This document shows, piece by piece, positions 11,549 to 28,364 of a DNA stretch of 37,164 nt. The stretch is from the IMG/VR virus record IMGVR_UViG_3300006100_000032, positions 1-37,164 of that record. The stretch is one strand, 5' to 3'. Source of the stretch: a virus. The translations under genes were made by a program, and so were the position numbers. The first letter of the stretch is position 1. The number at the start of each line of letters is the position of its first letter. The notes beneath the pieces were generated by a model. The model did not search any database and had not been told where the DNA came from. It saw nothing but the letters and a program-made list of their open reading frames with translations.

Positions 11549-12469
11549 ATGGCAAGACTTTTTACATTTGGATGCAGTTATTCTAGTTATTGTTGGCCAA
11601 GCTATGCTAACTTGTTATCCTTAGAATATGATAATAAGTTAAATGGCAATTGGGCTATGTCAGGATTAGGTAATCGCGCCATAGTGGAACGACTAGCTGA
11701 AGCACATTGTAAACATCAATTTACCAAAGATGACACAATCATAGTGCAATGGAGTTCACATATTAGGCACGATTGGTGGCATCAAACATCCTTACCTGAT
11801 CGAACAATAGGCTGGAAAACCTATGGTAGTATTTTCAATTATCACAATGTAAAATTGTTTGATAAAAACTGGGTAGATACTTTCTTTTTTGAACCTGCAT
11901 ATATGATGCATACATTTAACAGTATCATGCTAGCACAGTCAATGCTTGACAGTATTGGATGCCAGTGGTTTATGACTAGCATCGGCGACATTAGAAATAT
12001 GGGTAACGATATTCGTCAGCATAATGACAAATACGGAGAACTTACAAATCTAGTTAAAAATGTCAATAAACCAGGATATGCTGTATATGCTATAACGCCA
12101 GAATTGGAAGTTTATAATAAACCTATATGGGAAGATCGAGCAGATAAATGGATTATGCCGCTAGAATTATTTGCACAAACTTGTTCTGAACTTACGTACA
12201 GTTTTAGAGATTCGAGAGGTACTCCATGGTTTGATTTACATCCTACCACTCGACAACACACTATGTGGATTGAACAAGAATTAAGTAAAAAGTTGCCAGT
12301 TTCTCAACGTGTAATTGATAGCGGATACGAACTAGCCAACTATATAGATTTAATACATAGAAAATACATAACTAACTTTGATGCTTTTCAGTTCGCACTT
12401 ACGAAAAAAGAAAAATTTCCAAAAATTGTAGAAGAAATGATTTGGCCAGGAATAACACAAGGATTTTAA
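11549..12469 (+). CDS. SGNH-hydrolase-like protein
   Basis: A 306-aa protein with the block layout of the SGNH/GDSL hydrolase fold. Block I is FTFGCSYS with putative nucleophile Ser10 (the usual GDS is GCS here). The block II region GNWAMSGLGNRAIVE carries Gly41-Asn42. IIVQWSSH is a block III-like strand. FDLHPTTRQH carries Asp229 and His231 in the block V D-x-H position. This suggests an esterase, deacylase or sugar O-acyl-modifying activity, or a non-catalytic relative. There is no signal peptide. It is tightly coupled: 3 bp after the glycosyltransferase stop and 1 bp before the carbamoyltransferase start. Its place between two sugar-modifying enzymes suggests a shared glycan substrate, which is inference. 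The family call is from motif order only. Confidence 0.6.
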   Translation: MARLFTFGCSYSSYCWPSYANLLSLEYDNKLNGNWAMSGLGNRAIVERLAEAHCKHQFTKDDTIIVQWSSHIRHDWWHQTSLPDRTIGWKTYGSIFNYHNVKLFDKNWVDTFFFEPAYMMHTFNSIMLAQSMLDSIGCQWFMTSIGDIRNMGNDIRQHNDKYGELTNLVKNVNKPGYAVYAITPELEVYNKPIWEDRADKWIMPLELFAQTCSELTYSFRDSRGTPWFDLHPTTRQHTMWIEQELSKKLPVSQRVIDSGYELANYIDLIHRKYITNFDAFQFALTKKEKFPKIVEEMIWPGITQGF

Positions 12470-12470
12470 T

Positions 12471-14285
12471 ATGAAAAATTTAAGAAAAGACATCTGGATT
12501 GCAGGTGTTGCAAGAGGACACAATAGCAGTGTATGTTTACTTAAAAACGGAGAAATTGTTTTTAGTATCGAAGAAGAAAGGCTAAGTCGAAGCAAATACG
12601 ATGGCGGTCCATTTGCGGCTATGTTAAAGATTTTAGATTATACAGATAGACTAGATTATCTAGTAATTGCACATACACAAACACTAAGAGAAACTGCAGG
12701 TAGGGTAGATTTTAGTGGAGACGATATCTATACAGGTCTTGCTAGAAAGTTAGGGCTTATTAGTCGCAATGAAAATCCATATAATCATCCCCAAGTGTTA
12801 GATTATAGTATACACCATCATAAATTGCATGCTGCATGTGCGTTTTATCGTTCAGGATTTGACGAAGCTGCAGCACTAATTGTCGACGGTGCTGGAACAT
12901 TTATTCCACTTAATGTTTCGGGAGAAACTATTACAGGTTGGGAAACTGAAAGTATTTTTGATTGTTCGTATCCTGCATGGTTTGATACAGTATATAAACA
13001 TATTGGTGTCCGAGGACCGATGCCTGGTGCGTATGTCAAAGAATTTGACAGCGCACAGTACGACGAAGTGGGCAGGACACATGAAGCATTTGTTACTGAC
13101 AGAGCCGGTATTACTAAAGTGTACGAAGCTGTAACACAATATTGCGGATGGCAGTCGATTGAAGCAGGAAAAACTATGGGATTATTTCCGTATGGAAAAC
13201 CTAATGATGCTATTCCGACATTATTTGATAAAACCAGTATCGCTCCTGTTGCTAATAGAAACATAATAGTTCCTACATATCCTAACGGTGCATCAGTTAA
13301 CTATAATTTGTTTGAGTACTTACAAGATAAAGTAACAGACATGCCAGACGACGACGTAACTCTTAGAGATAATCGTAGAGATTTAGCCTATGCTTGTCAA
13401 ACACAAACACAAGAACAAGTGCTACGGTTAATTAGACTAGCTGTAGAAAAAACAGGTCATAAAAAAGTGGTTATTTCAGGCGGGTATGGATTAAATTGTG
13501 TTGCTAATTATTACTATTTAGAACAATTAAAAGACGACGGTATTGAAATTTATGTAGAACCAATTAGCAATGATGCTGGAACTGCCATTGGTGCTGCTAT
13601 ATTGGCATTTAAACGATATGGATATCCACACATGCCAATTGATTATACCAAGGATGGATTATATTTAGGATTTAAATATGATGTGGATTTTGATAGTCTG
13701 AACAGTATAGTTCAACAGTACAATGCTGAAATTACAGATGCTACTGATAGCGATATTGTTGATTTATTAATGAATAAAAACATTGTATCCTTATATCAAG
13801 GACGTAGTGAAAACGGTCCTAGAGCGTTGGGAAATCGTAGTATTTTATTTAATCCGACATATGAAGATGGAAAAGACTATGTTAATAATATAAAACATAG
13901 AGAATATTTCCGTCCATTTGCTGGTAGCATCTTACAAGAACATGTACATGAATGGTTTGATTTACGTGGTATGCAAGATAGTCCTTATATGATGTATGCT
14001 GTAAATTGCCAACTAGGTATTGAAGAAAAAATTCCTGCTATTATTCACGTAGATGGTACATGTCGTATTCAAACAGTTACTGAAGAACAAAATAAACACT
14101 ACTATAGTTTAATTAAAGCATTTTATGATAAAACAGGTATTCCTATTTTGTTCAATACTAGTTTTAACCTAGGTGGTGAACCATTAGTTGAAACTATTAA
14201 AGATGCTATACACACATTATCTAATAGTGAAATTGAATATCTGTATTTGCCAGAATATGGCAAATTGGTCAAAGTAGCTAATTAA
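12471..14285 (+). CDS. O-carbamoyltransferase, NodU/CmcH/TobZ family
   Basis: A 604-aa cytosolic enzyme of a family that transfers a carbamoyl group from carbamoyl phosphate, via carbamoyl-adenylate, to a hydroxyl of a sugar or related acceptor. The full family architecture is present. The N-terminal Kae1-like domain has GHNSSVCLLKNGEI (residues 16-29), IEEERLSRSKYD (33-44), the metal-binding-type HHHKLHAA (115-122), VDGAG, GKTMGLFPYG and ISGGYGLNC. The C-terminal YrdC-like domain has GRSENGPRALGNRS (444-457), HVDGTCRIQTV (526-536) and NTSFNLGGEP (562-571). Length is normal. AAGGAT lies 7 nt before the ATG, and the gene starts 1 bp after the upstream stop. It ends in a bidirectional terminator. 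The acceptor is unknown: a glycan is suggested by the neighbours, but phage carbamoyltransferases acting on 5-hydroxymethylcytosine are also known. Confidence 0.93.
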   Translation: MKNLRKDIWIAGVARGHNSSVCLLKNGEIVFSIEEERLSRSKYDGGPFAAMLKILDYTDRLDYLVIAHTQTLRETAGRVDFSGDDIYTGLARKLGLISRNENPYNHPQVLDYSIHHHKLHAACAFYRSGFDEAAALIVDGAGTFIPLNVSGETITGWETESIFDCSYPAWFDTVYKHIGVRGPMPGAYVKEFDSAQYDEVGRTHEAFVTDRAGITKVYEAVTQYCGWQSIEAGKTMGLFPYGKPNDAIPTLFDKTSIAPVANRNIIVPTYPNGASVNYNLFEYLQDKVTDMPDDDVTLRDNRRDLAYACQTQTQEQVLRLIRLAVEKTGHKKVVISGGYGLNCVANYYYLEQLKDDGIEIYVEPISNDAGTAIGAAILAFKRYGYPHMPIDYTKDGLYLGFKYDVDFDSLNSIVQQYNAEITDATDSDIVDLLMNKNIVSLYQGRSENGPRALGNRSILFNPTYEDGKDYVNNIKHREYFRPFAGSILQEHVHEWFDLRGMQDSPYMMYAVNCQLGIEEKIPAIIHVDGTCRIQTVTEEQNKHYYSLIKAFYDKTGIPILFNTSFNLGGEPLVETIKDAIHTLSNSEIEYLYLPEYGKLVKVAN

Positions 14286-14312: not shown

Positions 14313-15599
14313 TTAATGCCCTTCTGGCTGTACCATACCAGAATTTGGATTTCTATCTGGTTCTGGTCTGTCATGACCTATTTTTGGTTCATCAGGTCTA
14401 TCTGGATGTATTGGTCCACTAATTTTATGTGATCCAGTAGTAGGCATACTTAAAAACTTAATTCCTTTATTGCCTTCTGTTGGTGTATTTTGTAATGGAT
14501 CATCTAATACTATTTGTTTTTTAGCTGAATCTATTGAAACAACTTCAGTTTTGTGATCGAACAAATCTGTTACTAAATGATCTTGCATATCTAAGCCCAT
14601 GCCAACTTCGATACCAGTTACATTGGTGACTTGAATAACTCTGTGTCCCTCAGTGTTGATAGGAGCAGGTGCTGTTAGATCTAAATCTACCCAAACATTT
14701 GATGTTGCTCCATGTAGTTGCGGCAATAATTTTAAATCTCGTTGATATAATACCCACTGATCCAAAATATCTGCTGGCATACTACTATCATGGTAATATA
14801 CTTTGGCAAAATCTCCAATTGATCCGGTTGTAATAGCTACAGCTGGACCTCCTCTGCTAGTGGCCAGTTGGCATGCTGTTGTTGTTGGATTTCCAACAAC
14901 ATAAAAATTAACTAGATTTAACGCTTCACCAGTAAGCCCATTAATTGAAATTGTAGTTGTACTATCTGCACCGTCGATCACTACAATAGCATCATCGGGA
15001 ATTGGATCCGGTTCTGCATCAAAATTAAGTGTTGTTGGACTACCATAAACTACATTTACTAGTCTAACAGGATTAGTTCTATGATTAGCATGATCTAGTA
15101 CACTATTTCTCCAGTGTCTTAAATCGTGCCAATCGCTGTGTGGTTGTTGCCATGGGAATGGTTCTACCCAAGTTTGTGTTGTAGGGTTATATTCTACAGC
15201 CATTCTATTGTAAGCATGGTCTGGAGGCATATTATCATCGTGTGGGCGAGTGTATGTTGTACCGTCTGGTAATGTTTCTGTATGCTGAACTAGTGTTGCA
15301 TAATCTACTTTACCGATCGGGTCAACTAATAATTGTGCAACCAATGGATTAGCTGCGCAATCTAATTTTACTAGATACTCGTCTGGATGTACCGGAAAAT
15401 CCTCTGGATCCCATTCGGCAATCATATAATCACCATGGTATGTATTGGTTGCTTTTTTCATACGCAACCATACAAAATCTGGACCATTATATGTCCATGT
15501 AGCTGTTTTACCTAAAACTCCAGTTTGTGCTAGATATTCATCTGGAATTGGGTAAGTAAATGTTACTGAAATTTGTTGTGTTATTCCTGTTTTTGGCAT
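14313..15599 (-). CDS. Tail-assembly-chaperone-like protein, long form with insertion (428 aa)
   Basis: Paralog of the 230-aa protein at 17149-17841. Both start with a TFTY-(P/D)-(I/L)-PD-(E/A)-YL-x-QT strand, a K-TATWTY-x-G motif, and a W-R-(N/D)-S-(V/T)-L helix after PW-(Q/K)-(Q/K)-PH. The short form continues directly into a W-x-x-YRQKLRDLP helix as in phage tail assembly chaperones. Here about 85 residues (VNVVYGSPTTLNFD to VYYHDSSMPA) separate the two helices, which resume at LDQWVLYQRDLKLLPQL. A C-terminal extension rich in His, Pro and Asp follows. Last gene of the minus cluster, 27 bp from the terminator. It probably helps fold or attach the Gly/Cys-rich proteins encoded just upstream, but it could also be a structural protein that has absorbed a chaperone-like domain. 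Confidence 0.6.
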   Translation of the reverse strand: MPKTGITQQISVTFTYPIPDEYLAQTGVLGKTATWTYNGPDFVWLRMKKATNTYHGDYMIAEWDPEDFPVHPDEYLVKLDCAANPLVAQLLVDPIGKVDYATLVQHTETLPDGTTYTRPHDDNMPPDHAYNRMAVEYNPTTQTWVEPFPWQQPHSDWHDLRHWRNSVLDHANHRTNPVRLVNVVYGSPTTLNFDAEPDPIPDDAIVVIDGADSTTTISINGLTGEALNLVNFYVVGNPTTTACQLATSRGGPAVAITTGSIGDFAKVYYHDSSMPADILDQWVLYQRDLKLLPQLHGATSNVWVDLDLTAPAPINTEGHRVIQVTNVTGIEVGMGLDMQDHLVTDLFDHKTEVVSIDSAKKQIVLDDPLQNTPTEGNKGIKFLSMPTTGSHKISGPIHPDRPDEPKIGHDRPEPDRNPNSGMVQPEGH

Positions 15600-15605
15600 T
15601 TTATT

Positions 15606-16364
15606 TTATCCGTAAGTTACCGAGACTAAGCCGCCACCGCCGTATTCACCACAGCAACAGTTATTAGCTGATCCAATTCCTGGTCTGCCACCGCCGCCTG
15701 GAAAGTATGGTCCTGTGCCCCAACTTGTACATCCGCCCCATTGACATCCATGTGGTCCTGTCCATGGTCCTGATACTGTAGCTGGTGCTACTGCTGCAAA
15801 TCCTTGAGCTTTTGCTCCACAGAATTGTGTTTGGAGTTCACCGCCACTATAACCTGGCATTGTGATATCGCCTCCGCATGCAGAACTTTGACAACAAATT
15901 ACATTACATCCTGTATAGCATGAAAAATATTGCCAACAAGTACTAATACTTTGGCAACCGCCTTGTGCGCAAAAATTACTTAATCCGTATCCGTTTACAA
16001 ACGACACATATCCTGGACAACCTGTACAATAAGGTGTTGAAAATGTTGTACTACCTGCACAAATTGTATAGCCTTGACCTGCTAATCCACCAGCTGTACC
16101 GGCACACACTGATTTAACTGAATATGCTCCTGCGCCACCACCACTTCCAGACTGACAGCAACAACTTCCACCGCCGCCGCCGCCTCCACCCCAGATTTCA
16201 AATGTAACCCATGTTGTACCTGCAGGTGCTGTCCAATAACAGCACTGACCGCCATTTTGACCGCTACAATAACTTCCGTTATAAACTAAAAATTCTGTAG
16301 GATAGTTGGTAGAATATACAGGTTGATTAACTGTAAATGCTATATTTGCTAAACTTGTTGCCAT
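15606..16364 (-). CDS. Cysteine-rich Gly_rich_2-like adhesin candidate 3 (252 aa)
   Basis: A glycine- and cysteine-rich protein with 24 Cys in 252 residues by my count. The layout matches phage glycine-rich tail domains: an aromatic strand WTAPAGTTWVTFEIWGGGGG, a glycine-rich body, and a terminal strand GGGGLVSVTYG. Uniquely, Cys clusters interrupt the glycine runs: GGQCCYW near residue 38, GGSCCCQSG near 66, CTGCPG, NVICCQ and NNCCCGEYGGGG near the end. The start MATSLANI is shared with two paralogs at 16380-17141 and 17854-18624. There is no signal peptide. It may form a polyglycine-type lattice at a fibre tip, with Cys giving disulfides or metal sites. Function is inferred; no enzyme motif. 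GGAA serves as a ribosome binding site. Confidence 0.75.
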   Translation of the reverse strand: MATSLANIAFTVNQPVYSTNYPTEFLVYNGSYCSGQNGGQCCYWTAPAGTTWVTFEIWGGGGGGGGSCCCQSGSGGGAGAYSVKSVCAGTAGGLAGQGYTICAGSTTFSTPYCTGCPGYVSFVNGYGLSNFCAQGGCQSISTCWQYFSCYTGCNVICCQSSACGGDITMPGYSGGELQTQFCGAKAQGFAAVAPATVSGPWTGPHGCQWGGCTSWGTGPYFPGGGGRPGIGSANNCCCGEYGGGGLVSVTYG

Positions 16365-16379
16365 ATTATTCTATTCCGT

Positions 16380-17141
16380 TTATTTGTAAGTTATAATTAC
16401 TAGGCCGCCAGCACCAAATGCACCACAATAACAGTTTCCACCGTTTGCAATAGCACTTGCGCCGCCACCGCCTGGGAATGTTGCGTAAGTATTATTCAAA
16501 CTATTATATCCGCTGTTGTTACTACAGCTATCTGTTTGCATACGTAACCCTGTTCCGATATAAGTTGGTTCAGCAACATAACCGTAACCATCCCATGCAC
16601 AACCTGCGCCATTATGCATACCACCGTTGACTCCGCACAATGCAAAATCAACGTTACACACACCTGCTTGACAAACAAAACTTAAACAGTTACACCAGTT
16701 ACCATATGTTCCGCAACCAGTACATCCACCACCGCCGCCGCCTGCGCAGATATTTATTGCGTATGTTGAACCGCCTTGTACAAACGAAGTGTATCCACCA
16801 GCGCCGTTATTACAACATCCCCAACAACCAGAACTGGCTGCACACACTGTATACGATTCGCCTGGAACTACACGAGTTGTTTTTCTTCCGTAGGATCCGC
16901 TGGCGCCACTTTGCATTGGGCTCATGCAACAACAAGATGCGGCACCAGTGCCGCCACCGCCCCACATTTCAAATCTTACCCAACTCGCGTTAGCTGGAAC
17001 TGTCCACAAACAACATTGGCCGCCGTTGCTTACACTATTGATGCTTGTATTATAAACATAAATTGTATTTAAATAGTTGGTAGTACTGGCGTTAATAGTC
17101 CAACGACTATCAGGAAAAAGCGACGATAATGAAGTTGCCAT
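16380..17141 (-). CDS. Cysteine-rich Gly_rich_2-like adhesin candidate 2 (253 aa)
   Basis: Second member of the trio, with 21 Cys in 253 residues by my count. Aligned landmarks are NGGQCCLWTVPANASWVRFE, WGGGGTGAASCCCM, GCWGCCNNGAGG, CAGGGGGGCTGCGTYG, and the end GGNCYCGAFGAGGLVIITYK. The first 40 residues after MATSL differ from the paralogs and may specify the attachment partner. The central 70 residues are also divergent, as expected for a receptor-binding surface. It is 7 bp downstream of the chaperone-like gene at 17149-17841 and 15 bp upstream of the third paralog, consistent with one transcript. The glycine-rich tail domain call is based on the W-x-P-A-x-x-x-x-V-x-F-E-x-W-G-G-G-G pattern. 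Confidence 0.75.
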   Translation of the reverse strand: MATSLSSLFPDSRWTINASTTNYLNTIYVYNTSINSVSNGGQCCLWTVPANASWVRFEMWGGGGTGAASCCCMSPMQSGASGSYGRKTTRVVPGESYTVCAASSGCWGCCNNGAGGYTSFVQGGSTYAINICAGGGGGGCTGCGTYGNWCNCLSFVCQAGVCNVDFALCGVNGGMHNGAGCAWDGYGYVAEPTYIGTGLRMQTDSCSNNSGYNSLNNTYATFPGGGGASAIANGGNCYCGAFGAGGLVIITYK

Positions 17142-17148
17142 TTAAATA

Positions 17149-17841
17149 TTACCCTTCTCTTGAATGGATTTTTGGATCTTGACCTAATGTCCACTTTCTT
17201 GGAGGCGATCCAGGCATTACTGGAAAACTAACTTTCCAAGGATCAACACCTTTAAATGTTTCTGGAAGATCACGTAATTTTTGACGATATTCTTCCCATG
17301 CCGCACGATCTTGTGGCGCACATGTTCTAACGTTCATGTCTGAACTTGCTAGAGTACTATCACGCCATTTTTTCAAATCATCCCAAGTAACATGCGGTTT
17401 TTTCCATGGAAGTGGTTTGACAAAATCTTGTGCAACTGGATCCCATGTAATTTCTGTTAATTCATATGTATGATCTGGAGGAGTTGGATCTGGATGACCA
17501 TACCAAGTATTATCTGGTAATGCTTCTTCAGTATGTGGTAATTCACCATATACATAATCACTGTGTACCATGCTAGCTATCAACGGATTAACATTGGCAT
17601 CGATGAATATCTTGTACATATTTTCAGGAGTAGGTACATCTTCACCGTTATCACCTTCGTGGTGATGAAATTTACTTATGATCTTTCCTGTTGCCTTATC
17701 AGCATATATCCATAATTTATCGTAACCACGATAAGTCCATGTAGCTGTTTTTTTCAAATTATTTGTTTGATACAAATACGCATCAGGAAGATCGTATGTA
17801 AACGTAACTTCTATCATATTTAACTCTGGTGGATTTTCCAT
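17149..17841 (-). CDS. Tail-assembly-chaperone-like protein, short form (230 aa)
   Basis: A probable tail-fibre assembly chaperone. The C-terminal region carries the signature arrangement of phage tail assembly chaperones: WDDLKKWRDSTLASSD, then APQDRAAWEEYRQKLRDLP, then DPWKVSFPVMPGSP (about residues 143-210). The N-terminal half, with EVTFTYDLPDAYLYQT and KTATWTYRGYDKLW, is shared with the 428-aa paralog at 14313-15599 and may bind the client. It is rich in charged residues and low in Gly, unlike its neighbours, as expected for a soluble chaperone rather than a fibre. It is transcribed between two Gly/Cys-rich proteins (12 bp after one, 7 bp before the other). AGAGG precedes the ATG. Confidence 0.68.
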   Translation of the reverse strand: MENPPELNMIEVTFTYDLPDAYLYQTNNLKKTATWTYRGYDKLWIYADKATGKIISKFHHHEGDNGEDVPTPENMYKIFIDANVNPLIASMVHSDYVYGELPHTEEALPDNTWYGHPDPTPPDHTYELTEITWDPVAQDFVKPLPWKKPHVTWDDLKKWRDSTLASSDMNVRTCAPQDRAAWEEYRQKLRDLPETFKGVDPWKVSFPVMPGSPPRKWTLGQDPKIHSREG

Positions 17842-17853
17842 TTTTAACCTCTT

Positions 17854-18624
17854 TTAACCGTATGTAATAACTATTAGACCTGCACCGCCCCATTGACCCC
17901 AACAGCAGCCGCCAGCACATGCTTGACCTGAACTACCAGGACCGCCTGGAAATCCAATTTGTTGTTGTGCGTAATAGTAGCAACCTGCTACAGTCATTGG
18001 TTGAGCGCAACTACTACTTCCAAACATCGAGTTTGGTTGATATTTTAAACTTCCACTTTTCCATGGATAGTGTTCTTGCGTACAGAAATTGTTTTCATGA
18101 TCGCCGTTGTTTTGAATATAACCCATGCATAAGTCGCCGCATAAATTACAGCAACACATAATTCCGCCACAACAGTTTCCGTAACAACTTTGGCCGCCCA
18201 TGTGTCCACAATAAGTACAGCCGCCTGCGCCGCCTGCGCCGCAAGCCACAACTGTACCAGCACTATTGGTTACAAAACTAGGGAATCCGCAACCTGCATT
18301 GAAACATTGACTACAACAACCGCTACCTGCAGCACAAATATTGTAGTAAGGACATATATTAGTAGAAACTGTTTTTTTAACGTATTGTCCTGAACCTGGA
18401 GCTTGTACAGGGCCTTCACAACAACACGACCCAGCACCATCTCCGCCAGCACCCCACACTTCAAACTGAACATATTGTGTACCAGTTGGGCAAATCCAGC
18501 AACAACAGCATCCGCCAGACTGAGTACCGACTCCAAAATACCCACCACAGACCATCTGTTGTCTAATTTTGTAGTAGGTTTTTGCGCCAGATATTAAATT
18601 TAAATTTACGAGTGATGTTGCCAT
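17854..18624 (-). CDS. Cysteine-rich Gly_rich_2-like adhesin candidate 1 (256 aa)
   Basis: The most cysteine-rich of the trio, with 32 Cys in 256 residues by my count, including a CCCC run (SGGCCCCWICPTG near residue 40), GAGSCCCEG near 70, MCCCNLCGDLC near 153 and GGCCWGQWGGAGLIVITYG at the end. The scaffold (WICPTGTQYVQFEVWGAGG, KKTVSTN, GFPSFV, FPGGPG) is that of phage glycine-rich tail domains. It also has several His near Cys (YCGHMGG, NGDHENNF), which would suit metal binding but does not show it. The start MATSLVNL is shared with both paralogs. AAGAG is the likely ribosome binding site. Placed just upstream of the short chaperone-like gene, it is a plausible client of that protein. Confidence 0.75.
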   Translation of the reverse strand: MATSLVNLNLISGAKTYYKIRQQMVCGGYFGVGTQSGGCCCCWICPTGTQYVQFEVWGAGGDGAGSCCCEGPVQAPGSGQYVKKTVSTNICPYYNICAAGSGCCSQCFNAGCGFPSFVTNSAGTVVACGAGGAGGCTYCGHMGGQSCYGNCCGGIMCCCNLCGDLCMGYIQNNGDHENNFCTQEHYPWKSGSLKYQPNSMFGSSSCAQPMTVAGCYYYAQQQIGFPGGPGSSGQACAGGCCWGQWGGAGLIVITYG

Positions 18625-18633
18625 ATTTTACTC

Positions 18634-18963
18634 TTAGTGTCCGCCTAATAACCAACCGTATGCTGAGCTATAAATTAGTGTTACAGCACAATAGTTAATG
18701 TTTAATGTTAAACTGGTATTAGCATTAGCAATGTTAGCTGCACCGTTCTGTGCTATTGTAACGTTAGATGCAGCAAATGCACCTGTAGCATCAATAATTT
18801 GCACAGTATCTCCGTCTAATGCTGCTGCTGTAGGAGGTAAAGTTAAAGTCATACCGCCTGCAGTACAAATTACACGATCATTTGTTAGCATAGTGTAGTT
18901 AGTACCAGCGTTATAACGTATTACCGATTGTGCTGTTCCTGTTGTTGTGATATATCGTCCCAT
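18634..18963 (-). CDS. Small beta-rich fibre/structural protein (109 aa)
   Basis: I do not know a named function. The protein has a domain found at fibre ends and as small stand-alone proteins in marine phages: RVICTAGGMTLTLPPTAAAL, then GDTVQIIDATGAFAASNVTI, then NYCAVTLIYSSAYGWLLGG at the C-terminus. The alternating hydrophobic pattern suggests an all-beta fold, perhaps trimeric. A late promoter octamer (GATAAATA) lies 21 nt before the ATG, so this gene may begin the transcript that carries the Gly/Cys-rich and chaperone-like genes. GAGGAA is a strong ribosome binding site. Confidence 0.72.
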   Translation of the reverse strand: MGRYITTTGTAQSVIRYNAGTNYTMLTNDRVICTAGGMTLTLPPTAAALDGDTVQIIDATGAFAASNVTIAQNGAANIANANTSLTLNINYCAVTLIYSSAYGWLLGGH

Positions 18964-18998: not shown

Positions 18999-19325
18999 TT
19001 ACGTTGTTGAAGTCTCAATTCCGTAGGCTACAAAACTAACTCCAACTGCACTAGATCTAACTAGGATGGAATTACCTGGATTTATAACCAATCCTGTACG
19101 TTCTAATACCCCGTGTGATAGAATTTCTGTTTCATATTCGATAAATTCGTTATTTCCAATCGTTGTGGTAGAAGTACTAATTCCTATACGAACTGATATT
19201 GCATTGTTACTTCTGTTGCACACTGATACTGTAGCCATTGTAAAAAACCCAGCTGGTGCTGTATACAATAATGTATCTGTTGCAGCTGCTGGAATGTCTA
19301 ATACTCCAAATCGTCCTGTTGCCAT
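18999..19325 (-). CDS. Small conserved phage structural protein, paralog b (108 aa)
   Basis: One of two adjacent paralogs of equal length. Shared landmarks are the start MATGR-(F/L)-G, TLLYT-x-P-x-G-(F/N)-F, a V-(S/T)-(V/L)-(C/V)-NR strand, EFIEYE, HGVLERTG, and the end VAYGIET. Proteins of this kind are common in T4-like marine phages as unassigned structural proteins next to fibre genes. Small, all-beta by pattern, with no catalytic residues. It follows the first paralog by 18 bp. GGAG is present before the ATG. Role unknown; a ring or collar element on the fibre is one possibility. Confidence 0.75.
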   Translation of the reverse strand: MATGRFGVLDIPAAATDTLLYTAPAGFFTMATVSVCNRSNNAISVRIGISTSTTTIGNNEFIEYETEILSHGVLERTGLVINPGNSILVRSSAVGVSFVAYGIETSTT

Positions 19326-19343: not shown

Positions 19344-19670
19344 TTATGATGTTGCTGTTTCTATGCCATATGCCACAGCATTAACACCAAGTAGGCTACT
19401 TCTAAATAGCACAGATTGGCCAGCTTGTAGGACAATACCAGTTCTTTCTAGCACACCATGCGCTGACAATATAACTTCATATTCAATAAATTCGGCTGCA
19501 GCAATTGAACTAGTTGCGGCACATGCTCCTAGACGTACTGTACACTCTGTATTTGTTCTGTTAACTAATGTTACAGATACTACTGCAAAATTGCCTGGCG
19601 GGCAAGTATACAATAACGTATCTACGTTGATTGTTCCAATATCTACCGCCCCTAATCGTCCTGTTGCCAT
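19344..19670 (-). CDS. Small conserved phage structural protein, paralog a (108 aa)
   Basis: Partner of the gene at 18999-19325, with the same length and the same order of motifs (MATGRLGAVDIG, TLLYTCPPGNFAVVSVTLVN, AEFIEYEVILSAHGVLERTG, VNAVAYGIETATS). The two differ most in the middle loops, so they are diverged tandem duplicates rather than recent copies. It begins 12 bp after the 2893-aa spike gene, with GAGGA as ribosome binding site, so it probably belongs to the same late transcript. Specific function unknown. Confidence 0.75.
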   Translation of the reverse strand: MATGRLGAVDIGTINVDTLLYTCPPGNFAVVSVTLVNRTNTECTVRLGACAATSSIAAAEFIEYEVILSAHGVLERTGIVLQAGQSVLFRSSLLGVNAVAYGIETATS

Positions 19671-19682
19671 TTTAAATCCTCG

Positions 19683-22600
19683 TTAATTTAGTAAGAAGTT
19701 TACAGCTAATGGGCTTCCATCTACCCCTGCTATAAAATACATCTTGTTTGCCACTTTAATCTGCACTTGGGTAGTAGTACTAATACTATTTCCTGCTATG
19801 TAAATTGAGCCAGCCGTTAGTGTATTTACATTCAATGAACTACCACCGCCACCAATTTGGCTACTAATATAAGATTTAATAGCTTTTTGTGTTGGTAAAA
19901 TATTGTCACTATTTGCTGTAAAATACGGATCTGTTGAAAAACTAGTAATTGTAGCACTGTTATTGCCTAAACTTACTGATCCAATAGTTAAACTATTCAA
20001 ACCAGCTACGTTGAACGCACTAGCATTTAGAGTAGCAGTACCAGTTGCTTGCTGTACGCTGAATAAATTACCAACGTTAAAATTGCCGTCTTGGTCTGTA
20101 CTTGTAAAGAATACACGACCACCATTATTGCTAACTGTTTGATAGTTACCGTTAGCCACTAATAACGGAGTTCCTGGATAGTTGGTATTAGTAAAATTAC
20201 CAGTACCAATACTTAAAAAGTCATGTCCTGTCAAACGCACTTGACTATACTTAATTCTTAATGTAATTGCTGTGCCATTGGCTGGTGCATTAGTTGTAGT
20301 TAAACTTGGATTAATTTGGAATTGTGCGGTATACGGATATAATCCGCCACCAGTTCCAATTAAGTTAGTTACTTGCACCAGTTTGTAAATAGTACTATTT
20401 CCATTAAAAATTATATTTGATCCTGCTACCGGTGTTGTATATATTCCAGCTACGTTAATGTAAGTACCTGGTTGATATATATCTGCAATTCCGTTAGTTA
20501 CTACAGTTGCACTGGCTGTAGCGTATGCTAAACCTCTATTAGTAAATGTTGGATTTGCAATAGCGCCTGTTCCAGTTCTAACACTCCAGGTTGCACTAGT
20601 TGTTTGATTTGGATCAATAATTGTTACAGCAGGTGTGCTTGCATATCCACTACCTGGTTCAATCATCTTAAATGATGTCACTGCTCCACCGGCAACTGTC
20701 ACACGAGCTTGTGCTGTACAACCTGTTGTAATTAAATTATATCCTGTTGTACCGTATGTCAGTACTACCCAATATGGAACACTGTTTGGATTTCCAAATG
20801 CTACAACGCCTGCAGATGCTGTAGTACTTAATGTTCTTGAAGTCCAGTAAATACCGTCTTCACTAGTAGCACAAGTAGTTGAGCCAGCATCGGTATTGGT
20901 TGCCATGAACAATCCTTGCGCATATCTTACCTTATTCCATGTTTGGGTGCTCGGTAATCCAAGACCGGCATACCATGTAATACCATCAAAACTATAAGCT
21001 GTAGCACTTGTATTAGCCGCAATTGCAACAAATTTATTCTTACCAAATGCTACACTAGTCCAGTTTTGACTGCTTGGCAATCCGTTGCTAGCTAACCAAC
21101 CAACTGTTGGATTTGTACTGTAAGCAGATGTAGTTCCGCCTGATGCTATAGCTACCCAGGTAGCACCACCAAATGCAATACTTGTCCAGTTGGCTGTTTG
21201 TGGCAATGCTGCTCCAGTTGTCCAGCTAGATCCGCCATTTGTACTAATAATTACGCTAGATCCGCCGTATTGAATAGCTATAAACTGGCTAGATCCGCCA
21301 TATGCTATGGCACTCCAGTTAGTAGTTAAGCCTAACGTGCCCGATGCGGTCCAAGTAACACCGCCATTTGTACTAATAGCTCCTGTGTTTGAACCGTTAG
21401 CAACTGCAACCCATGTACCAACTGATCCATTTGCACCGTATGCAACAGCTGACCAAGTTGAACTTGCTGGCAATGCGCCACCTGCGTTCCATCCAGAACC
21501 AGTGGTGCTATACATTGTTGATGTTCCAGCATTAGCAATAGCAACAAAGTTACCGCCTGCACCTTGTCCACTGTAGGTAAAGTTATTGATGATTCCACCA
21601 ACAGTATTAGTTACTGTGATTGTAATATTATTAGTCGGTGTGGTTCCGCCTAAATTTGCACCTGCAATAGTTAAAGTATTACCAATTGCGTAACCAATAC
21701 CGCCGGTTGCTAATGTTACTGAATATGCAATACCAGTTCTAGTGATATTAAATTGTGCACCGGTTCCTGAGCCGCCTGTAACACCAATACTTGAATATGT
21801 TCCGTTAATATCTCCGTATGCGCAATCTATCCATGTTCCAGATGTCTGAGTACCCAATACACTAGTGAATCCTGGACTTGTAAATGTAACTCTTGGCTCG
21901 ATAATATAATTTGTAGTAACATCCAAATTAGCCAACAATGGCCATCCTGTAACTACATGATCCCATCCTGCTGGATACCATGTAATCGATTGACTTGTTG
22001 TAGTTGTTACAGCTAGTCCAGCTGTAGCATTCGAAGATGAAGCTGCACTAAACACGGAATTAGTAAACGTAGTCATACCAACTGCTGTTGTTGCAGTTGT
22101 TGTAACACCAACAGCATAGTATAGTGTGGCTGTATTTAAATTAGTTCCTGTAGTAGCACTTAGATAAAATGGCATACCATTATACATGCCTGCTGTGCTA
22201 GAAACTGTTATAGTATTTTGTGTACCCGTAATAGTAGCACTCGCTCTTGTTTGATTTGCGCTTACAATATAGTTTGCTGTAGCTGTAGGTGTTCCTGTAG
22301 CAGCTTGATTCAAACTATAAGTTCCTAATCCGCCTGGAATATAAAAACTAGTTGTACCAGATACGGCACCAACTAATGGCTGACTTAGTGTAACTGTTAA
22401 TGCATTAAAATTAATAGCTGTTACAAATGTGTTAGCTGGAAGTCCAGATATTGGAGTAATAAACATTGCAGGAGCAATTGTTCCAATAGATCCAACAGTA
22501 AATGAACTCAATGTAAGTGTACTTTGCCCACTTGTGCCTGTTATTGTACAAGTTGCTTGCGCGGTAGATCCTGTAGCATTAATTTGTCCAGTAATATAAG

Positions 22601-25600
22601 TGTAATTAGTTACGCTACCACCACTTAGTAATCCACCTGTCATAAGATTACTTGCACTTACTGTTGCTGACAACAATGTGCTTGAAATATTAGTTACAGT
22701 ACCTGCTGTAGGTGTTGTACCGCCTGTTACAGTATATGTAATACTAGTTTGGCTAACAATGCTTGTAACAACTACACTAGTTGGGCTACCACCATAAAGA
22801 GTACCTGTACCAGATGTTGCTGTTAAAGGCATACCAACAACGCAACTGCTAGTTGAGCTCATACCTGTAATAGTTGCTGTCCAAGGACCTGCACCAGTAA
22901 TAGAACCGATTGTACCTGTTGTACTTACTACGCTACTTGCCAAACTTGATGTGCCAATTGCACCAGTTGAAGTTGCAGAAATGTATGTACCAGCTGTAAT
23001 TGTACCTGAGCTAGTTAAGAACATGCCAGGAGCAAATGCAGAACCAGTAACTGCGCTAATTGGAACAAACACAGCAGGTATATTTGTAATTCCAACAGCT
23101 ATAATTACACCAGTTGCACTAGATGTTGCTGTAGTTGTTGCTGAAATAGGCAATGTAGGAATAGTTTCTTTTGCAATTTGAGCAATTTTACTACCGTTAT
23201 TATAGTTAGTGATATAACCAGTTTGTCCGCCGCCGGTACCGCCGATTAATACAATTCTTTCACCTACATATACTCCACTAATGTTTGTGTCAGTTGCAGC
23301 AATCGTAATTTGATATAATGTACCAGCTTGGCCTACGTTACTGATAATAACATAGTTTGCACCGCCAGTTAGATAACGTGTTTCAAATACCGCATTATCA
23401 CGGAATTCATTACCAACTGTTGCCACATTATAACCGCCACTACTTGCAATATTAAATGTTGCTGTATTTGCTGTCTGTCCAGCATTAGTAAATTCTAATC
23501 TCCAAACTCTATTTACTGCATCGGTTAATACGTTTGCAATAATTGGATATGTATAACGATTGTTAACGGTTGCTGTTACAGGGGTTTCTGTTAGATCGTA
23601 TCCTTCTGCAACAACTCCATAACTACCATATGAGCTGTTACCGTTAGTAGCACGAATTTTTGCACCAGCTTCTGCAAGATAACCAATTTGGTTATAGTAC
23701 GAGAACACAGACACACACTCTGTTAACGCATTAGTTCCATATGCCCACACTCCGATACCGTCACTTAGAACTTGGGTAAAATCATTACAAACTATACTTC
23801 TATTACCGCCATTGTGTAATGTTCCATCAATTTTTAATCCAACACACCCGGTTCCGAATGTTGTCACGTTTTGTACGTAAGGAGATTTTCTAAAAATCCA
23901 AACGCTTGTATCTTGGGGGCCAACTCCTGGATCTAAACTAGTATAAGCGCCGGCTGTTGGTCGACTTGTACCATAGTTGCTACTATAAGTTGTTCCGCTT
24001 AAACTAGCACCAGTAAATGCAATATAAGTACCAGCTATAGCATTATTATAAGTTGTAGATAACGTTAATGTTGTTGTAGTTAATACACTACCAATATAAT
24101 AAGTTCCAGCTGTAAGTCCGCCACCGCCTGTTCCTGCTACAATAAATTGATTTCCGGTTGCCATACCTGTAGTACTTCCTACAGTTATAGTTCCGCCTGT
24201 ATTTGTTGTACCATATGTGGCCACTGTAGTAGCAGTAATTGATCCAGTACTAATTGCTACTGGAGTACCAACACTTCCAGTCAATCCGTATAACGTCATA
24301 TTTCTAACACCAGAACCATTTCTGCAATAGAACATGTTTCCAGTTAAATATCCTGCTGTTAAACTTGTACTTGAAATACTCAAAGAACTAGCAGCACTTA
24401 ATAATGCATCTGATCCAGTATTATAAATTGTATAAGTTCCAGCTTTACCTGCATAAAAGAAATATGCAGTAGTAGTATTTCCAGTGAAACTTGTAGTTAG
24501 TTCGTTACTTAATGTAACAGTAGTACCATTGACAGCTGTAACAAATGTATTAGTAGGTATTCCTGAAATAGTTGCACCATTACCAGATACAAACATACCA
24601 ACTACAACAGATGCATTAGCTGAACTTAATGTAATATTGTACGATCCGCTAGTACCATTGAATGTTTGGCTTGTTGCTGATGATCCTGATGCTCCTGTTA
24701 ATTGAGCTGTAATTTGTACAGGGCTTAATATAGCAGAGTTTCCAGTCAAATACATTCCTACAATGATGTTACCAGTTGCTGTAAATGTAGTACTTGTGGG
24801 ATTACTACTTGTTAATGTTATATATGTACCAGCTAGCGCATTTGTATAACTAGTTGCTAGTGTTAATGTTGTAGCCGATAATACTTGTCCAACAAAATAT
24901 GTTCCTGCACTAATACCGCCACCGCCTGCGCCAGTAATAACAAATTGATGTCCAGTTAATAGCCCAGTGGTATTTGCTACTGTAAGATAACCGCCTGTTC
25001 CTGTTGATCCATAAGTGCTAATACTAGTACTTGTAATACTAATATTAGATAAAATATTGGTCATAGCCGACACTGTTAATGTTCCAGCGGAAGTCGAACC
25101 AGTAAATGGTGCTGTAGTTGAAAGTGGTTGAACAATTACGCCACGCAATTCGTCTCCAACTAATGCTACGTTTTCTGGAACACTAATTGGTAGTACTTCA
25201 TTGTAAGTTCCGTTCTTAATAAAGATAGTACTAGTAACTCCGGCATTTGCAGAAGGAATGCTTGCTGTACTTACATTAGTTAGTGCTGTTGTTATAATAC
25301 TGATTAAACTAGTAATATTTGCACTTGCTCCAGCTTCTGCAACGTAATTAGTATCAATAGTTTGATTAATTACAGAACCTGCAATAGATCCACCGCTTGA
25401 ATATGTTGCTGTAGTTAAACTTGCAACAGTCACACTAGAAGTTGACAAACTAATAACTTTGAATGATCCGTTGAAACCGCTTGGAGATACTCCGCTAATT
25501 GTAATAGTTTCGCCGATTACAAATGGACTATTAGTTTGAGTTGCAAATGTAAATGTAACTAATCCGTTCAATCCAGATGCACCTGTGATAGTCAAAGATG

Positions 25601-28364
25601 TAACAGCTCCGCTACCTCCAGTTGTGTTTTGATAGATAGTACCAGGTGCTGTATTTGCAATAACATTAGTAGTTAACAAGTTTGATAATTTGTTTAGAGC
25701 AGCAATATAAAATGCTGCTTGTGAAGCTACGTTAGTTGTAATAAATGTCGACGTAGATCCTTGTTGAAAAAATGCCAATGCAGCTGCTACAGTTTGACTG
25801 TTGCCGCCTCTTACTAAATCGTAGATTACAGCGTCAACAATATATCCTGCATCTCGTTGTGTTTTATACTGATCATAACTTGATGAAGGGCTGAATGGAG
25901 ATATGCTGTTTGTTTTTTCATAAATCATCCAGTTATACATTTCGGCTATAGCCCAATTTTTATTTTGAGTTAACAAATAGCTAGTGTTAGGATAGTAAGT
26001 TCCATTTAACACTTGTTGACACGCATATTTTATAGTTTTCCAAGGACGATCTAATGTTTGACCGTAATTAGGTGCAGGGCTATCTACACCATTAGTGTTA
26101 CTAACATAGTACACATCACTAATTAAACCAAAATATCCCCAAGATGGAAGACCTCCGGCGCTTACTTTTAAGACTTGCCCAACTGAACCAATTCCTAAAC
26201 GGGTAGCACCTGTTGGACCATAGTATGCAATATCTCCCGAAGTAGTTAAAATACTTGTACTTGCACCCGCGGCAATTAAATTCCAATAAGTTCCTGTTAA
26301 ATCATTTGGTGGACTGTTTAAAGAAGATGCAGTATGTGCTAAAATACAAACATAACTATTTGGTCCATAAACTGTAATATCACCTGCAACATATGCTGTA
26401 CTAGTTATCCAAGTAGATGAGTATCCAATGAATGAATATGTTGTAATTGCACCGCCAGTAACCGTACCAACTGTAATTGTAATATCATTAAATGGTGATA
26501 TACCTCCTACAGATGTTCCTAATATTTTAATAATATCGCCTGCGGTATAGTTAGTACCGTTAGCTGTTTTGTTTAAACTGTATACAGTTCCAGTTGATGT
26601 TACTGTAAACTGTGCGCCTGCTGCTGATCCGTTTGTTACTGTAACATTAGTTGTACTAAGACCTGTATAAGTTGCACCTGGAGCATTGAATCTAACCCCA
26701 GTATTTAAACGACTCCAATATGTTGTATTAGGCGGTTGATTGCCCGAGCTTGGAGTGTGATCTAAAATACATACATATGTATATGCACCGTTACGGACAA
26801 CATTACCTACTCGATATCCAGTCTGGCCTGTTTGTAATCCTGTTGGACTAGTGGTCCAATCGCCTAACAATGTCCAACCGGTAGTGTACAAGAACCAATT
26901 ATTTGCTGCCACAGTTCCAAACCCGGTAGCTGCAGACAGCGGGCCATTAGGAATAGTATAAGATACTTGTGTTGTAGTAGGAGTACCAGTTACAACCCAT
27001 GTTCCGTTATAGCTAGATGGAACCACGTTAGCTACTGTAATTGTTTGGTTAGCCGTAAACGGAACTGAACCTTGTGTGGCATAAGTTAAAGTTACTGTGT
27101 TACCAACTGTGCTTGCAGCCGTGATAGTAATTGTATTAGGTGAACTTACATCAGTAGTTGGAACTACTCCTGAATTTTGACTTGCTGCAATATAACTAAA
27201 ACCGCCGTAGGTAACCAAATCGCCATTTTGGTATGTTGTGCTACTATTCCAGGTATTGAAATAAGTTAATCCTTCTACAAATTTACTCCAATTAGTTTCG
27301 ACAAATGTGCTATAACTAGTATGTGGAGTTGTACAAATATAAGTATCCGCACCATAAAGTACTATATCGTTAGCTTTATATCTAACACTACTTGAGCTCC
27401 ATAAACCTAAGTAGTTAAAACCTTTGTGTAAATAATCCCAATAACTTTGATTTGCTTCTAGACCGCTAGTGGCTGAGCTAGCACTAGTATGTGCGGTGTT
27501 ACATACGTATAAATATCCGCCGTATCTTACTACATCATTGACTCGATATGCAGTCGAAGTTAACCAATCTACAGTCCAAGTAAACCCATCAGCAAAAACA
27601 GTCCACTTACTTTGATCGTTTTCTAAACCTTTAGTACCGTTTGCTGATATTGTTCCTGTTGTTCCTGTATAACTTCCACCCAAAGCATACGTTACGTAAG
27701 TAGTTGTACAAGCTAGTACAGTAAATGTTCCATTAAATTGAGTTGTTGAAAAATTACTAACTGTAAGAGTAGTTCCTGCTGAATACGGCGCAATAGATTG
27801 TGTTGATGCAAATGTTAATGTAGCAGTCCCGCCTGTTGCTGTTGCAGACGATACAGAAAGTGTCGTAGTTGACGCACTACTTTGATGTCCTGTATTACAT
27901 ATATAAGTTTCGCCGCCATATTTTACTACATCGTTTGCTTTATATCTATAAAGACTTGCCCAATTACCTAACCAGTTGAAACTAGTAGCATATACGGTCC
28001 AGTTAGATAAATTTGCTTCGAGACCGGCACTAGTATCTGGACTTTGTCCAGAATTCGCAGAATTGCTACTTGTATGTGCAGTGTTACAAATATATACAAT
28101 TCCACCATATTTTACAATATCGTTTACATTGTAGTATGTATTAATAGTCCAGTTACCAGTCCAAGTTGAACCATCTGAAACCTGATTCCACTTAGTAGGT
28201 ATTGCTGATAAATCAGTAACAAAATTAGCCGATGCCGTATGAGCAATAGTGCAAACATAGGTTTTACCACTATTTCTTACTATGTCGTCTTTTACATAAG
28301 ATGTTCCTGTAGTCCATGTGCCTTGCCATACGAAGCGCAATCTACCAAGTTTAAATTCTGCCAT
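19683..28364 (-). CDS. Giant tail spike/fibre B (2893 aa)
   Basis: A very large virion protein, paralogous over its whole length to the 2329-aa protein at 28412-35401. Domain order by residue: an N-terminal strand (MAEFKLGRLRFVWQGTW); eight CBM5/12-like units (about 15-680) of the form G-x-W-x(5)-Y-x(3)-D-x-V-x-Y-x-G-x-x-Y-x-C-x(3)-H-x-S; a conserved block VYYVSNTNGVDSPAPNYG with AEMYNWM and VDAVIYDLVRGGNS (about 750-870). A beta-helix-like region follows, with IFIKNGTYNEVLPISVPEN (about 1045), MFYCRNGSGVRNMTLYGL (about 1341), RKSPYVQNVTTFGTGCVGLK and KIRATNGNSSYGSYGVVAEG (about 1490-1590). Then come propeller-like STNG-x-x-W repeats (about 2270-2515) and a C-terminal domain with TGHDFLSIG, STDQDGNFNVGNLF and LPTQKAIKSY. 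Low-complexity inserts absent from the paralog lie near 1360-1465 and 1740-2125. A late promoter lies 21 nt upstream. Glycan binding or cleavage is plausible, but I see no clear catalytic residues. Confidence 0.85.
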   Translation of the reverse strand: MAEFKLGRLRFVWQGTWTTGTSYVKDDIVRNSGKTYVCTIAHTASANFVTDLSAIPTKWNQVSDGSTWTGNWTINTYYNVNDIVKYGGIVYICNTAHTSSNSANSGQSPDTSAGLEANLSNWTVYATSFNWLGNWASLYRYKANDVVKYGGETYICNTGHQSSASTTTLSVSSATATGGTATLTFASTQSIAPYSAGTTLTVSNFSTTQFNGTFTVLACTTTYVTYALGGSYTGTTGTISANGTKGLENDQSKWTVFADGFTWTVDWLTSTAYRVNDVVRYGGYLYVCNTAHTSASSATSGLEANQSYWDYLHKGFNYLGLWSSSSVRYKANDIVLYGADTYICTTPHTSYSTFVETNWSKFVEGLTYFNTWNSSTTYQNGDLVTYGGFSYIAASQNSGVVPTTDVSSPNTITITAASTVGNTVTLTYATQGSVPFTANQTITVANVVPSSYNGTWVVTGTPTTTQVSYTIPNGPLSAATGFGTVAANNWFLYTTGWTLLGDWTTSPTGLQTGQTGYRVGNVVRNGAYTYVCILDHTPSSGNQPPNTTYWSRLNTGVRFNAPGATYTGLSTTNVTVTNGSAAGAQFTVTSTGTVYSLNKTANGTNYTAGDIIKILGTSVGGISPFNDITITVGTVTGGAITTYSFIGYSSTWITSTAYVAGDITVYGPNSYVCILAHTASSLNSPPNDLTGTYWNLIAAGASTSILTTSGDIAYYGPTGATRLGIGSVGQVLKVSAGGLPSWGYFGLISDVYYVSNTNGVDSPAPNYGQTLDRPWKTIKYACQQVLNGTYYPNTSYLLTQNKNWAIAEMYNWMIYEKTNSISPFSPSSSYDQYKTQRDAGYIVDAVIYDLVRGGNSQTVAAALAFFQQGSTSTFITTNVASQAAFYIAALNKLSNLLTTNVIANTAPGTIYQNTTGGSGAVTSLTITGASGLNGLVTFTFATQTNSPFVIGETITISGVSPSGFNGSFKVISLSTSSVTVASLTTATYSSGGSIAGSVINQTIDTNYVAEAGASANITSLISIITTALTNVSTASIPSANAGVTSTIFIKNGTYNEVLPISVPENVALVGDELRGVIVQPLSTTAPFTGSTSAGTLTVSAMTNILSNISITSTSISTYGSTGTGGYLTVANTTGLLTGHQFVITGAGGGGISAGTYFVGQVLSATTLTLATSYTNALAGTYITLTSSNPTSTTFTATGNIIVGMYLTGNSAILSPVQITAQLTGASGSSATSQTFNGTSGSYNITLSSANASVVVGMFVSGNGATISGIPTNTFVTAVNGTTVTLSNELTTSFTGNTTTAYFFYAGKAGTYTIYNTGSDALLSAASSLSISSTSLTAGYLTGNMFYCRNGSGVRNMTLYGLTGSVGTPVAISTGSITATTVATYGTTNTGGTITVGSTTGMATGNQFIVAGTGGGGLTAGTYYIGSVLTTTTLTLSTTYNNAIAGTYIAFTGASLSGTTYSSNYGTSRPTAGAYTSLDPGVGPQDTSVWIFRKSPYVQNVTTFGTGCVGLKIDGTLHNGGNRSIVCNDFTQVLSDGIGVWAYGTNALTECVSVFSYYNQIGYLAEAGAKIRATNGNSSYGSYGVVAEGYDLTETPVTATVNNRYTYPIIANVLTDAVNRVWRLEFTNAGQTANTATFNIASSGGYNVATVGNEFRDNAVFETRYLTGGANYVIISNVGQAGTLYQITIAATDTNISGVYVGERIVLIGGTGGGQTGYITNYNNGSKIAQIAKETIPTLPISATTTATSSATGVIIAVGITNIPAVFVPISAVTGSAFAPGMFLTSSGTITAGTYISATSTGAIGTSSLASSVVSTTGTIGSITGAGPWTATITGMSSTSSCVVGMPLTATSGTGTLYGGSPTSVVVTSIVSQTSITYTVTGGTTPTAGTVTNISSTLLSATVSASNLMTGGLLSGGSVTNYTYITGQINATGSTAQATCTITGTSGQSTLTLSSFTVGSIGTIAPAMFITPISGLPANTFVTAINFNALTVTLSQPLVGAVSGTTSFYIPGGLGTYSLNQAATGTPTATANYIVSANQTRASATITGTQNTITVSSTAGMYNGMPFYLSATTGTNLNTATLYYAVGVTTTATTAVGMTTFTNSVFSAASSSNATAGLAVTTTTSQSITWYPAGWDHVVTGWPLLANLDVTTNYIIEPRVTFTSPGFTSVLGTQTSGTWIDCAYGDINGTYSSIGVTGGSGTGAQFNITRTGIAYSVTLATGGIGYAIGNTLTIAGANLGGTTPTNNITITVTNTVGGIINNFTYSGQGAGGNFVAIANAGTSTMYSTTGSGWNAGGALPASSTWSAVAYGANGSVGTWVAVANGSNTGAISTNGGVTWTASGTLGLTTNWSAIAYGGSSQFIAIQYGGSSVIISTNGGSSWTTGAALPQTANWTSIAFGGATWVAIASGGTTSAYSTNPTVGWLASNGLPSSQNWTSVAFGKNKFVAIAANTSATAYSFDGITWYAGLGLPSTQTWNKVRYAQGLFMATNTDAGSTTCATSEDGIYWTSRTLSTTASAGVVAFGNPNSVPYWVVLTYGTTGYNLITTGCTAQARVTVAGGAVTSFKMIEPGSGYASTPAVTIIDPNQTTSATWSVRTGTGAIANPTFTNRGLAYATASATVVTNGIADIYQPGTYINVAGIYTTPVAGSNIIFNGNSTIYKLVQVTNLIGTGGGLYPYTAQFQINPSLTTTNAPANGTAITLRIKYSQVRLTGHDFLSIGTGNFTNTNYPGTPLLVANGNYQTVSNNGGRVFFTSTDQDGNFNVGNLFSVQQATGTATLNASAFNVAGLNSLTIGSVSLGNNSATITSFSTDPYFTANSDNILPTQKAIKSYISSQIGGGGSSLNVNTLTAGSIYIAGNSISTTTQVQIKVANKMYFIAGVDGSPLAVNFLLN
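23964..24290 (-). repeat. Module inserted between LYGL and RPTAGAY in spike B
   Basis: About 105 residues of Thr/Gly-rich sequence lie here between two blocks (NMTLYGL and RPTAGAY) that are only about 14 residues apart in paralog A. The insert includes a unit of about 200 bp (24021-24222) that is clearly related at DNA level to 24822-25020 in the same gene. The shared order is a GGGG-(I/L)-x-AGTY-(F/Y)-(V/I)-G-x-V-L strand followed by TTLTL-(A/S)-T. Confidence 0.7.
24822..25020 (-). repeat. Second copy of the ~200-bp unit in spike B
   Basis: This segment encodes GAGGGGISAGTYFVGQVLSA and TTLTLATSYTNALAGTYITL. It matches the copy at 24021-24222 (GTGGGGLTAGTYYIGSVLTT). Long stretches of bases also agree, so this is a duplicated module rather than convergence. 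Confidence 0.65.
26330..28325 (-). repeat. Array of eight CBM5/12-like units in spike B
   Basis: Eight diverged units with conserved Trp, Tyr, Asp-x-Val, Tyr-x-Cys and His-x-Ser positions, for example NDIVKYGGIVYICNTAHTS. The pattern resembles short chitin/cellulose-binding modules. Unit 6 has lost Cys and His. Two YNGTF-type modules and one GAQF-type module are spliced between units. Confidence 0.7.

Follow-up and report, generated by a model that had tools for sequence, protein, structure and literature searches.

What would a virus do with proteins in which about every tenth residue is a cysteine? The question is raised by a 37,164-nucleotide viral stretch (IMG/VR record IMGVR_UViG_3300006100_000032, positions 1 to 37,164; hereafter the window), which encodes three such proteins on its minus strand between positions 15606 and 18624. 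A first-pass annotation had read them as glycine-rich phage tail domains with 24, 21 and 32 Cys, and had proposed that the cysteines either cross-link the glycine strands after release into seawater or bind metal. The counts proved exact, for open reading frames (ORFs) of 252, 253 and 256 residues that are complete and start with ATG; we refer to these as copies 3, 2 and 1. The interval was described correctly as regards these three, but it also holds a Cys-poor chaperone ORF (17149-17841), unmentioned at first, that is an integral part of the cassette. We consider it reasonably likely that the three proteins are receptor-binding tip subunits of the long tail fibre of a T4-like cyanophage, folded by a chaperone and stapled by disulfides after lysis.

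The predicted fold is that of a cyanophage fibre tip

AlphaFold2 (AF2) models built with the family alignment were confident for copy 3 (pLDDT 87.6, pTM 0.85) and copy 1 (pLDDT 83.3, pTM 0.82), with low-confidence stretches in the poorly conserved middle and at about residues 200-220. The best PDB matches of both copies were to the fibre of cyanophage Pam3: for copy 3, 7ypx at Z 19.0 (root-mean-square deviation 8.5 Å, 209 residues aligned) and 7yfw at Z 18.1 (2.9 Å, 192), and for copy 1, 7ypx at Z 14.5 (3.2 Å, 195) and 7yfw at Z 14.0. These were followed by the Bxb1 tail tip (Z 13.8 and 12.5) and ALK/LTK (up to 9.4 and 11.0), and then by a gap to 4.2 or below. Searching PDB by sequence with 3- and 136-sequence profiles gave no match at E<=1. 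At the level of confident models and structural matches, the chains are predicted to form a TNF-like sandwich continued into a polyglycine domain, as in the Pam3 fibre tip, and the initial assignment to a glycine-rich tail domain is borne out.

Aligned over their full length to copy 3, copies 2 and 1 are 41% and 35% identical. All three match the profile of phrog_4205, a family of unknown function, from about position 36 to 285 of 287, while Pfam Gly_rich_2 (PF21722; gathering cut-off 24.3 bits) scores 33 bits with copy 2, 15.8 with copy 3 and has no match with copy 1. The motifs first picked out from the sequence recur in every copy, namely SCCC, a CC ahead of the first conserved Trp, the run WGGGG, a cluster of Cys near the C-terminus and, as the closing strand, G-L-(V/I)-x-(V/I)-TY, the last with a trivial departure in the third copy (GAGLIVITY).

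A cyanophage family with conserved cysteines

Scanning IMG/VR with a profile of the three proteins yielded 79 loci, and tblastn found relatives among the cultured cyanophages S-SSM7, S-SSM6a, Sf-FS3, P-SSM2 and P-SSM5 and in a single-cell phage; copy 1 alone gave no confirmed match in the IMG/VR scan and none by tblastn against cultured phages. Where annotated (P-SSM2 gp304/gp306, S-SSM7 gp114-116, Sf-FS3), the cultured relatives are labelled hypothetical, and our literature searches on such proteins found no description of the Cys-rich family; text extracts on the S-SM1 virion proteome (PMC3037559) likewise name none of these proteins. Hidden Markov model (HMM) searches at the ORF level recovered 183 distinct full-length proteins with 17-32 Cys each; as the model had Cys-rich sequences as its input, relatives poor in Cys may have escaped it. 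The 189 proteins of the family alignment likewise have 17-32 Cys each and average 9.6% Cys, and annotated isolates range from 25 to 36 Cys, with 36 in each of P-SSM2 gp304 and gp306. The family is carried by T4-like cyanophages (cyanomyoviruses). Other genes of the window, too, find their nearest cultured matches in cyanomyoviruses (carbamoyltransferase, 64% identity; a structural protein, 45-47%), so the host of this virus is most likely a picocyanobacterium; the seawater setting of the original proposal is not demonstrable for this IMG/VR fragment, whose habitat is unstated. The scan of genome contigs matched one metagenome-assembled genome, assigned to Neomarinimicrobiota, with the whole cassette spread over two contigs (L103, L104; PBPT01000082, PBPT01000016). 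It is probably a mis-binned phage, and L103 is nearly identical to the IMG/VR contig L047.

Cys occupies column 158 of the alignment in 100% of sequences, columns 310 and 337 in 99%, column 210 in 92% and column 110 in 91%; at columns 81 (97%) and 82 (95%) conservation is inflated by ascertainment because one of the two IMG/VR search patterns contains CC there, whereas the remaining columns and the same-locus paralogues recovered by HMM are free of such selection. Conservation of Cys columns among homologues had been set beforehand as a test of the first-pass proposal, and it is what we observed, with columns 158, 310, 337, 81 and 82 at 95-100% in the 189 relatives. At all levels of divergence no residue persisted as well as Cys, with Gly and Trp behind it (0.62, 0.59 and 0.36 at 30-40% identity; 0.91, 0.83 and 0.81 at 60-70%). 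When each copy was compared with its own orthogroup, 10 Cys of copy 3, 13 of copy 2 and 10 of copy 1 were kept in at least 90% of members, and 7, 4 and 13, respectively, were found in fewer than half. The Cys complement is a conserved core accompanied by a fast-changing set.

The density itself lies far above the norm for phage virion proteins, as first noted: Cys content is 0.9% in T4 and 2.1% in the structural proteins of phage Milano (PMC10811340). In the family's loci, the chaperone, fibre and carbohydrate genes have Cys medians of 0.55-1.8%, and the other window ORFs of at least 100 residues have 0-2.8%, mostly 0-2%, apart from a spurious antisense ORF at 12845-13264 (3.6%). Nor are cysteines a general trait of the glycine-rich domain, because a second PF21722 protein of P-SSM2 (L097, 109786-110481), our in-genome control, has 134 Gly and 2 Cys in 485 residues. 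That protein lies near a terminase-like ORF and is a candidate polyglycine virion protein.

Some cysteine positions change together

We mapped Cys gains and losses on the tree by parsimony and set them against 300 simulations in which two-state sites evolved independently along that tree. Gains and losses of Cys at columns 166 and 388 fell on shared branches (familywise p 0.003). At columns 179 and 388 they ran in opposite directions, an association that none of the 300 simulations equalled, and 167 of the 189 proteins have Cys at one of these two columns but not at both, although alignment errors around columns 386-389 could alter these counts. The simplest reading is that 166 pairs with 388 and that column 179 is able to substitute. 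A third pair, columns 195 and 208, was suggestive only (familywise p 0.13); in both models the two lie approximately opposite each other in a predicted beta-hairpin. Because some pairs are gained and lost together and two positions can stand in for one another, the covariation points to thiol pairing, with metal sites as a less likely alternative.

The genes form a predicted fibre-tip cassette

Among 68 distinct cassettes flanked on both sides, to which all our copy-number counts refer, every one runs from a fibre gene through one to three Cys-rich copies with their chaperone or chaperones to carbohydrate genes. A tail-fibre assembly chaperone is present in 68/68, and a fibre homologue adjoins the cassette in nearly all loci. 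For the Pam3 fibre, a role in host recognition has been proposed for the part at the tip, which grows more diverse towards its distal end and is folded by a trimeric chaperone (PMC9608196).

We propose that each chain is a TNF-like beta-sandwich carrying a polyglycine-type strand bundle with variable distal loops. The Mu/Pam3-type assembly chaperone, whose gene sits in the cassette and whose action we infer from Pam3, would fold the chains in the reducing cytosol. After lysis, oxidation of the thiols may create disulfides that staple the glycine strands and the variable loops, as the conservation and covariation of the cysteines suggest. The resulting head, which would bind the host, would be rigid and hold its form even as the loops change in sequence and single Cys pairs come and go. 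As the cysteines are the best-conserved residues among relatives, they probably lock the predicted host-gripping tip into shape. The tip of this lineage would be made from three diverged paralogues, and one might speculate that these form a single heterotrimer of the C1q kind.

Separate adhesins or one composite tip

Closer inspection of copy number bears on how the paralogues are used. Three copies occur in 57/68 cassettes (one with a third copy split by a frameshift), one in 8/68 and two in 3/68 (the P-SSM2 type), and never more than three; a strict choice between one copy and three is contradicted by P-SSM2, AG-345-F15 and L087, each with two. Type A, with the order Cys-chaperone-Cys-Cys-chaperone, accounts for 45/68, plus one with a frameshifted third copy, and the S-SSM7-like type B, Cys-Cys-Cys-chaperone, for 11/68. 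The type A copies fall into three orthogroups (49, 47 and 50 members) in fixed order, with moderate to weak support in FastTree bootstraps (19/100 for monophyly of the first). The type B copies group into a single clade in 100/100 bootstraps, and the P-SSM2-type and the single-copy types each receive the same support. It follows from the single type B clade that triplets probably arose at least twice, unless gene conversion homogenised one lineage.

It is quite conceivable, if a little short of probable, that the copies are independent adhesins, forming homotrimers on separate fibres or serving as alternative tips, that widen host range. The paralogues are 35-41% identical, with variable loops and lineage-specific Cys, and one-copy phages exist; however, genes kept as a host-range repertoire should differ in both number and order, and here three copies are near-constant and their order is fixed.

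More tentatively, the three paralogues could make up one heterotrimeric tip of three different TNF-like subunits, similar to C1q and perhaps with disulfides linking the subunits, instead of three homotrimers. The TNF-like fibre protein of Pam3, gp24, is a trimer (PMC9608196), and repeated arrival at three paralogues of a trimeric fold suggests such an assembly, as do the ceiling of three copies, the constant order of the type A orthogroups and the single chaperone that serves three copies in type B. Set against this are the eight cassettes with one copy and the three with two, the two type A chaperones that split the copies 1+2, the possibility that gene conversion in type B mimics independent triplication and the weak monophyly of the first type A orthogroup. 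A heterotrimeric tip is thus plausible but speculative, weakened by the lineages with one or two copies and by the presence of a second chaperone. The fullest version, in which three obligate, diverged TNF-like/polyglycine subunits with one or two chaperones form an asymmetric tip, stapled by disulfides, in which evolution reshuffles the Cys pairs to re-scaffold variable receptor-binding loops, strikes us as rather doubtful.

Disulfides or metal

Several observations weigh against a disulfide-stapled tip. Adjacent cysteines rarely bond each other, and CC clusters are also found in metal-binding proteins; in this family vicinal CC is enriched 2.5-fold and CCC 6.7-fold. Cys counts are even in 63 proteins and odd in 76, with no bias towards even numbers, so at least one Cys per odd-count chain must be unpaired, intersubunit or a metal ligand, and pairing of all Cys within one chain is ruled out. 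Moreover, the Pam3 paper mentions neither Cys nor disulfides, and the fold therefore seems not to need them.

The same adhesin could instead hold Zn, Fe or Fe-S in its Cys clusters, loaded in the host cytosol; the metal would rigidify the tip or let it engage host metal-uptake receptors. We judge this unlikely. The CC and CCC enrichments, a 1.4-fold enrichment of CxC and the frequency of odd counts speak for it, and Fe-loaded tail tips are known in other phages, where the idea of phage tails as a 'Ferrojan horse' exists in the literature. However, CxxC, the usual Zn or Fe-S spacing, stands at chance (ratio 1.06), His is scarce (4.6 per protein), Pfam and PHROGs searches of the three proteins matched no metal-protein family, and two-body co-gain and trade-off are simpler to explain by thiol pairs than by three- or four-ligand sites. 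Of the two roles first suggested, disulfides thus gain indirect support from covariation and the precedent of phage Milano, while metal, still a minor possibility, gains none, with CxxC spacing at chance and His scarce. Genes close to the cassette in cultured phages (L083, L084, L085) encode 2-oxoglutarate (2OG)-Fe(II) oxygenases, a cupin with a cysteine dioxygenase annotation and a glutaredoxin, the last in P-SSM2.

Composition drift or an annotation artefact without function has a negligible claim: nothing was found in its favour, and it is refuted by Cys columns near-invariant in 189 proteins, which make chance an untenable source of the Cys richness, by the persistence of Cys above other residues and by the low Cys content of the other genes in these loci.

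Genomic neighbourhood

On the minus strand of the window, the giant fibre is followed by three small proteins, copy 1, the chaperone, copies 2 and 3 and a second chaperone-like gene, which has an equivalent position in other three-copy, two-chaperone loci; carbohydrate genes then follow on the opposite strand.

Table 1. Cys-rich genes and associated fibre genes of the window
Feature	Position	Strand	Properties
Second chaperone-like protein	14313..15599	-	428 aa; N-terminal part common with chaperone 1 (phrog_9740); C-terminal extension
Copy 3, predicted Cys-rich adhesin	15606..16364	-	252 aa; 24 Cys (9.5%); phrog_4205 E 4e-35; orthogroup of 50
Copy 2, predicted Cys-rich adhesin	16380..17141	-	253 aa; 21 Cys (8.3%); PF21722 33 bits; phrog_4205 E 7e-26; orthogroup of 47
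Chaperone 1, tail-fibre assembly	17149..17841	-	230 aa; 1 Cys; Pfam Phage_tail_APC E 2.5e-8; phrog tail fibre assembly families
Copy 1, predicted Cys-rich TNF-like/polyglycine adhesin	17854..18624	-	256 aa; 32 Cys (12.5%); phrog_4205 E 7e-16; AF2 model; orthogroup of 49
Small fibre-associated protein, between giant fibre and copy 1	18634..18963	-	109 aa; weak matches to tail fibre families; counterpart at equivalent spot in locus L001
Small fibre-associated protein	18999..19325	-	108 aa; phrog_11338 tail fibre
Small fibre-associated protein, paralogue of the 18999..19325 product	19344..19670	-	108 aa
Giant tail fibre, presumed shaft carrying the adhesins	19683..28364	-	2893 aa; phrog_9851 tail fibre E 1.6e-135

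The giant fibre gene is adjacent to another at 28412-35401 (2893 and 2329 residues); both products match phrog_9851, an apparent fibre duplication. Elsewhere in the window, the products of 8140-8910, 8923-9450, 9450-10487 and 11549-12469 have no PHROG match at E 0.001, and the N-terminus of the last looks GDSL/SGNH-like by eye.

Relation to known systems

How T4-like cyanophages recognise their hosts at the molecular level is poorly understood, and this family offers concrete candidates for tip proteins with a predicted fold, chaperone and chemistry, some of them unnamed hypotheticals in the long-cultured model phages P-SSM2 and S-SSM7. With disulfides at these cysteines, the proteins would count as phage adhesins of unusually dense cross-linking, synthesised in a reducing cytosol and completed after leaving the cell. 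With metal there, they would have a bearing on the notion that phage tails carry metal. The repeated occurrence of triplets makes it conceivable that receptor-binding tips are heteromeric.

The cultured relatives P-SSM2 gp304/gp306 of Prochlorococcus and S-SSM7 gp114-116 of Synechococcus phages (phrog_35878, phrog_4205), are homologous Cys-rich proteins in the same cassette, but the two copies of P-SSM2 are extended at the N-terminus and accompanied by one chaperone, and S-SSM7 has three tandem copies with one chaperone. Pam3 gp24 with its chaperone gp25 (PDB 7YPX, 7YFW; PMC9608196) resembles the family in its TNF-like domain leading into a glycine-rich distal domain, its adjacent chaperone gene and its cyanobacterial host. 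Unlike the family, gp24 is a single gene whose homotrimer docks directly to the baseplate, whereas the Cys-rich proteins have about 10% Cys, one to three paralogues, a giant fibre upstream and no detectable PDB sequence match.

Agrobacterium phage Milano (PMC10811340) likewise has Cys-enriched virion proteins and an extensive disulfide network in the mature particle, where here covariation points indirectly to pairing. Its 2.1% Cys is far lower, its disulfides are mapped in sheath, tube and baseplate, its fold is not of the TNF-like/polyglycine type, and Cys is absent from its garland proteins gp125 and gp127. The ALK/LTK extracellular domain shares a TNF-like sandwich with polyglycine helices (Z 8-11), but it belongs to an animal receptor, its structural similarity is below that of Pam3 and shared ancestry is unproven. 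The T-even/S16 gp38 adhesin is also a glycine-rich tip adhesin and resembles Pam3 gp24, through which alone it is related here, but a beta-helix domain replaces the TNF-like domain (PMC9608196), and S16 gp38 (6F45) is absent among the structural matches listed. In the way they would work, the proteins are thus like the fibre-tip adhesin of Pam3; in what they are, they form a Cys-rich family of that fold whose members have long been in the databases as hypothetical proteins.

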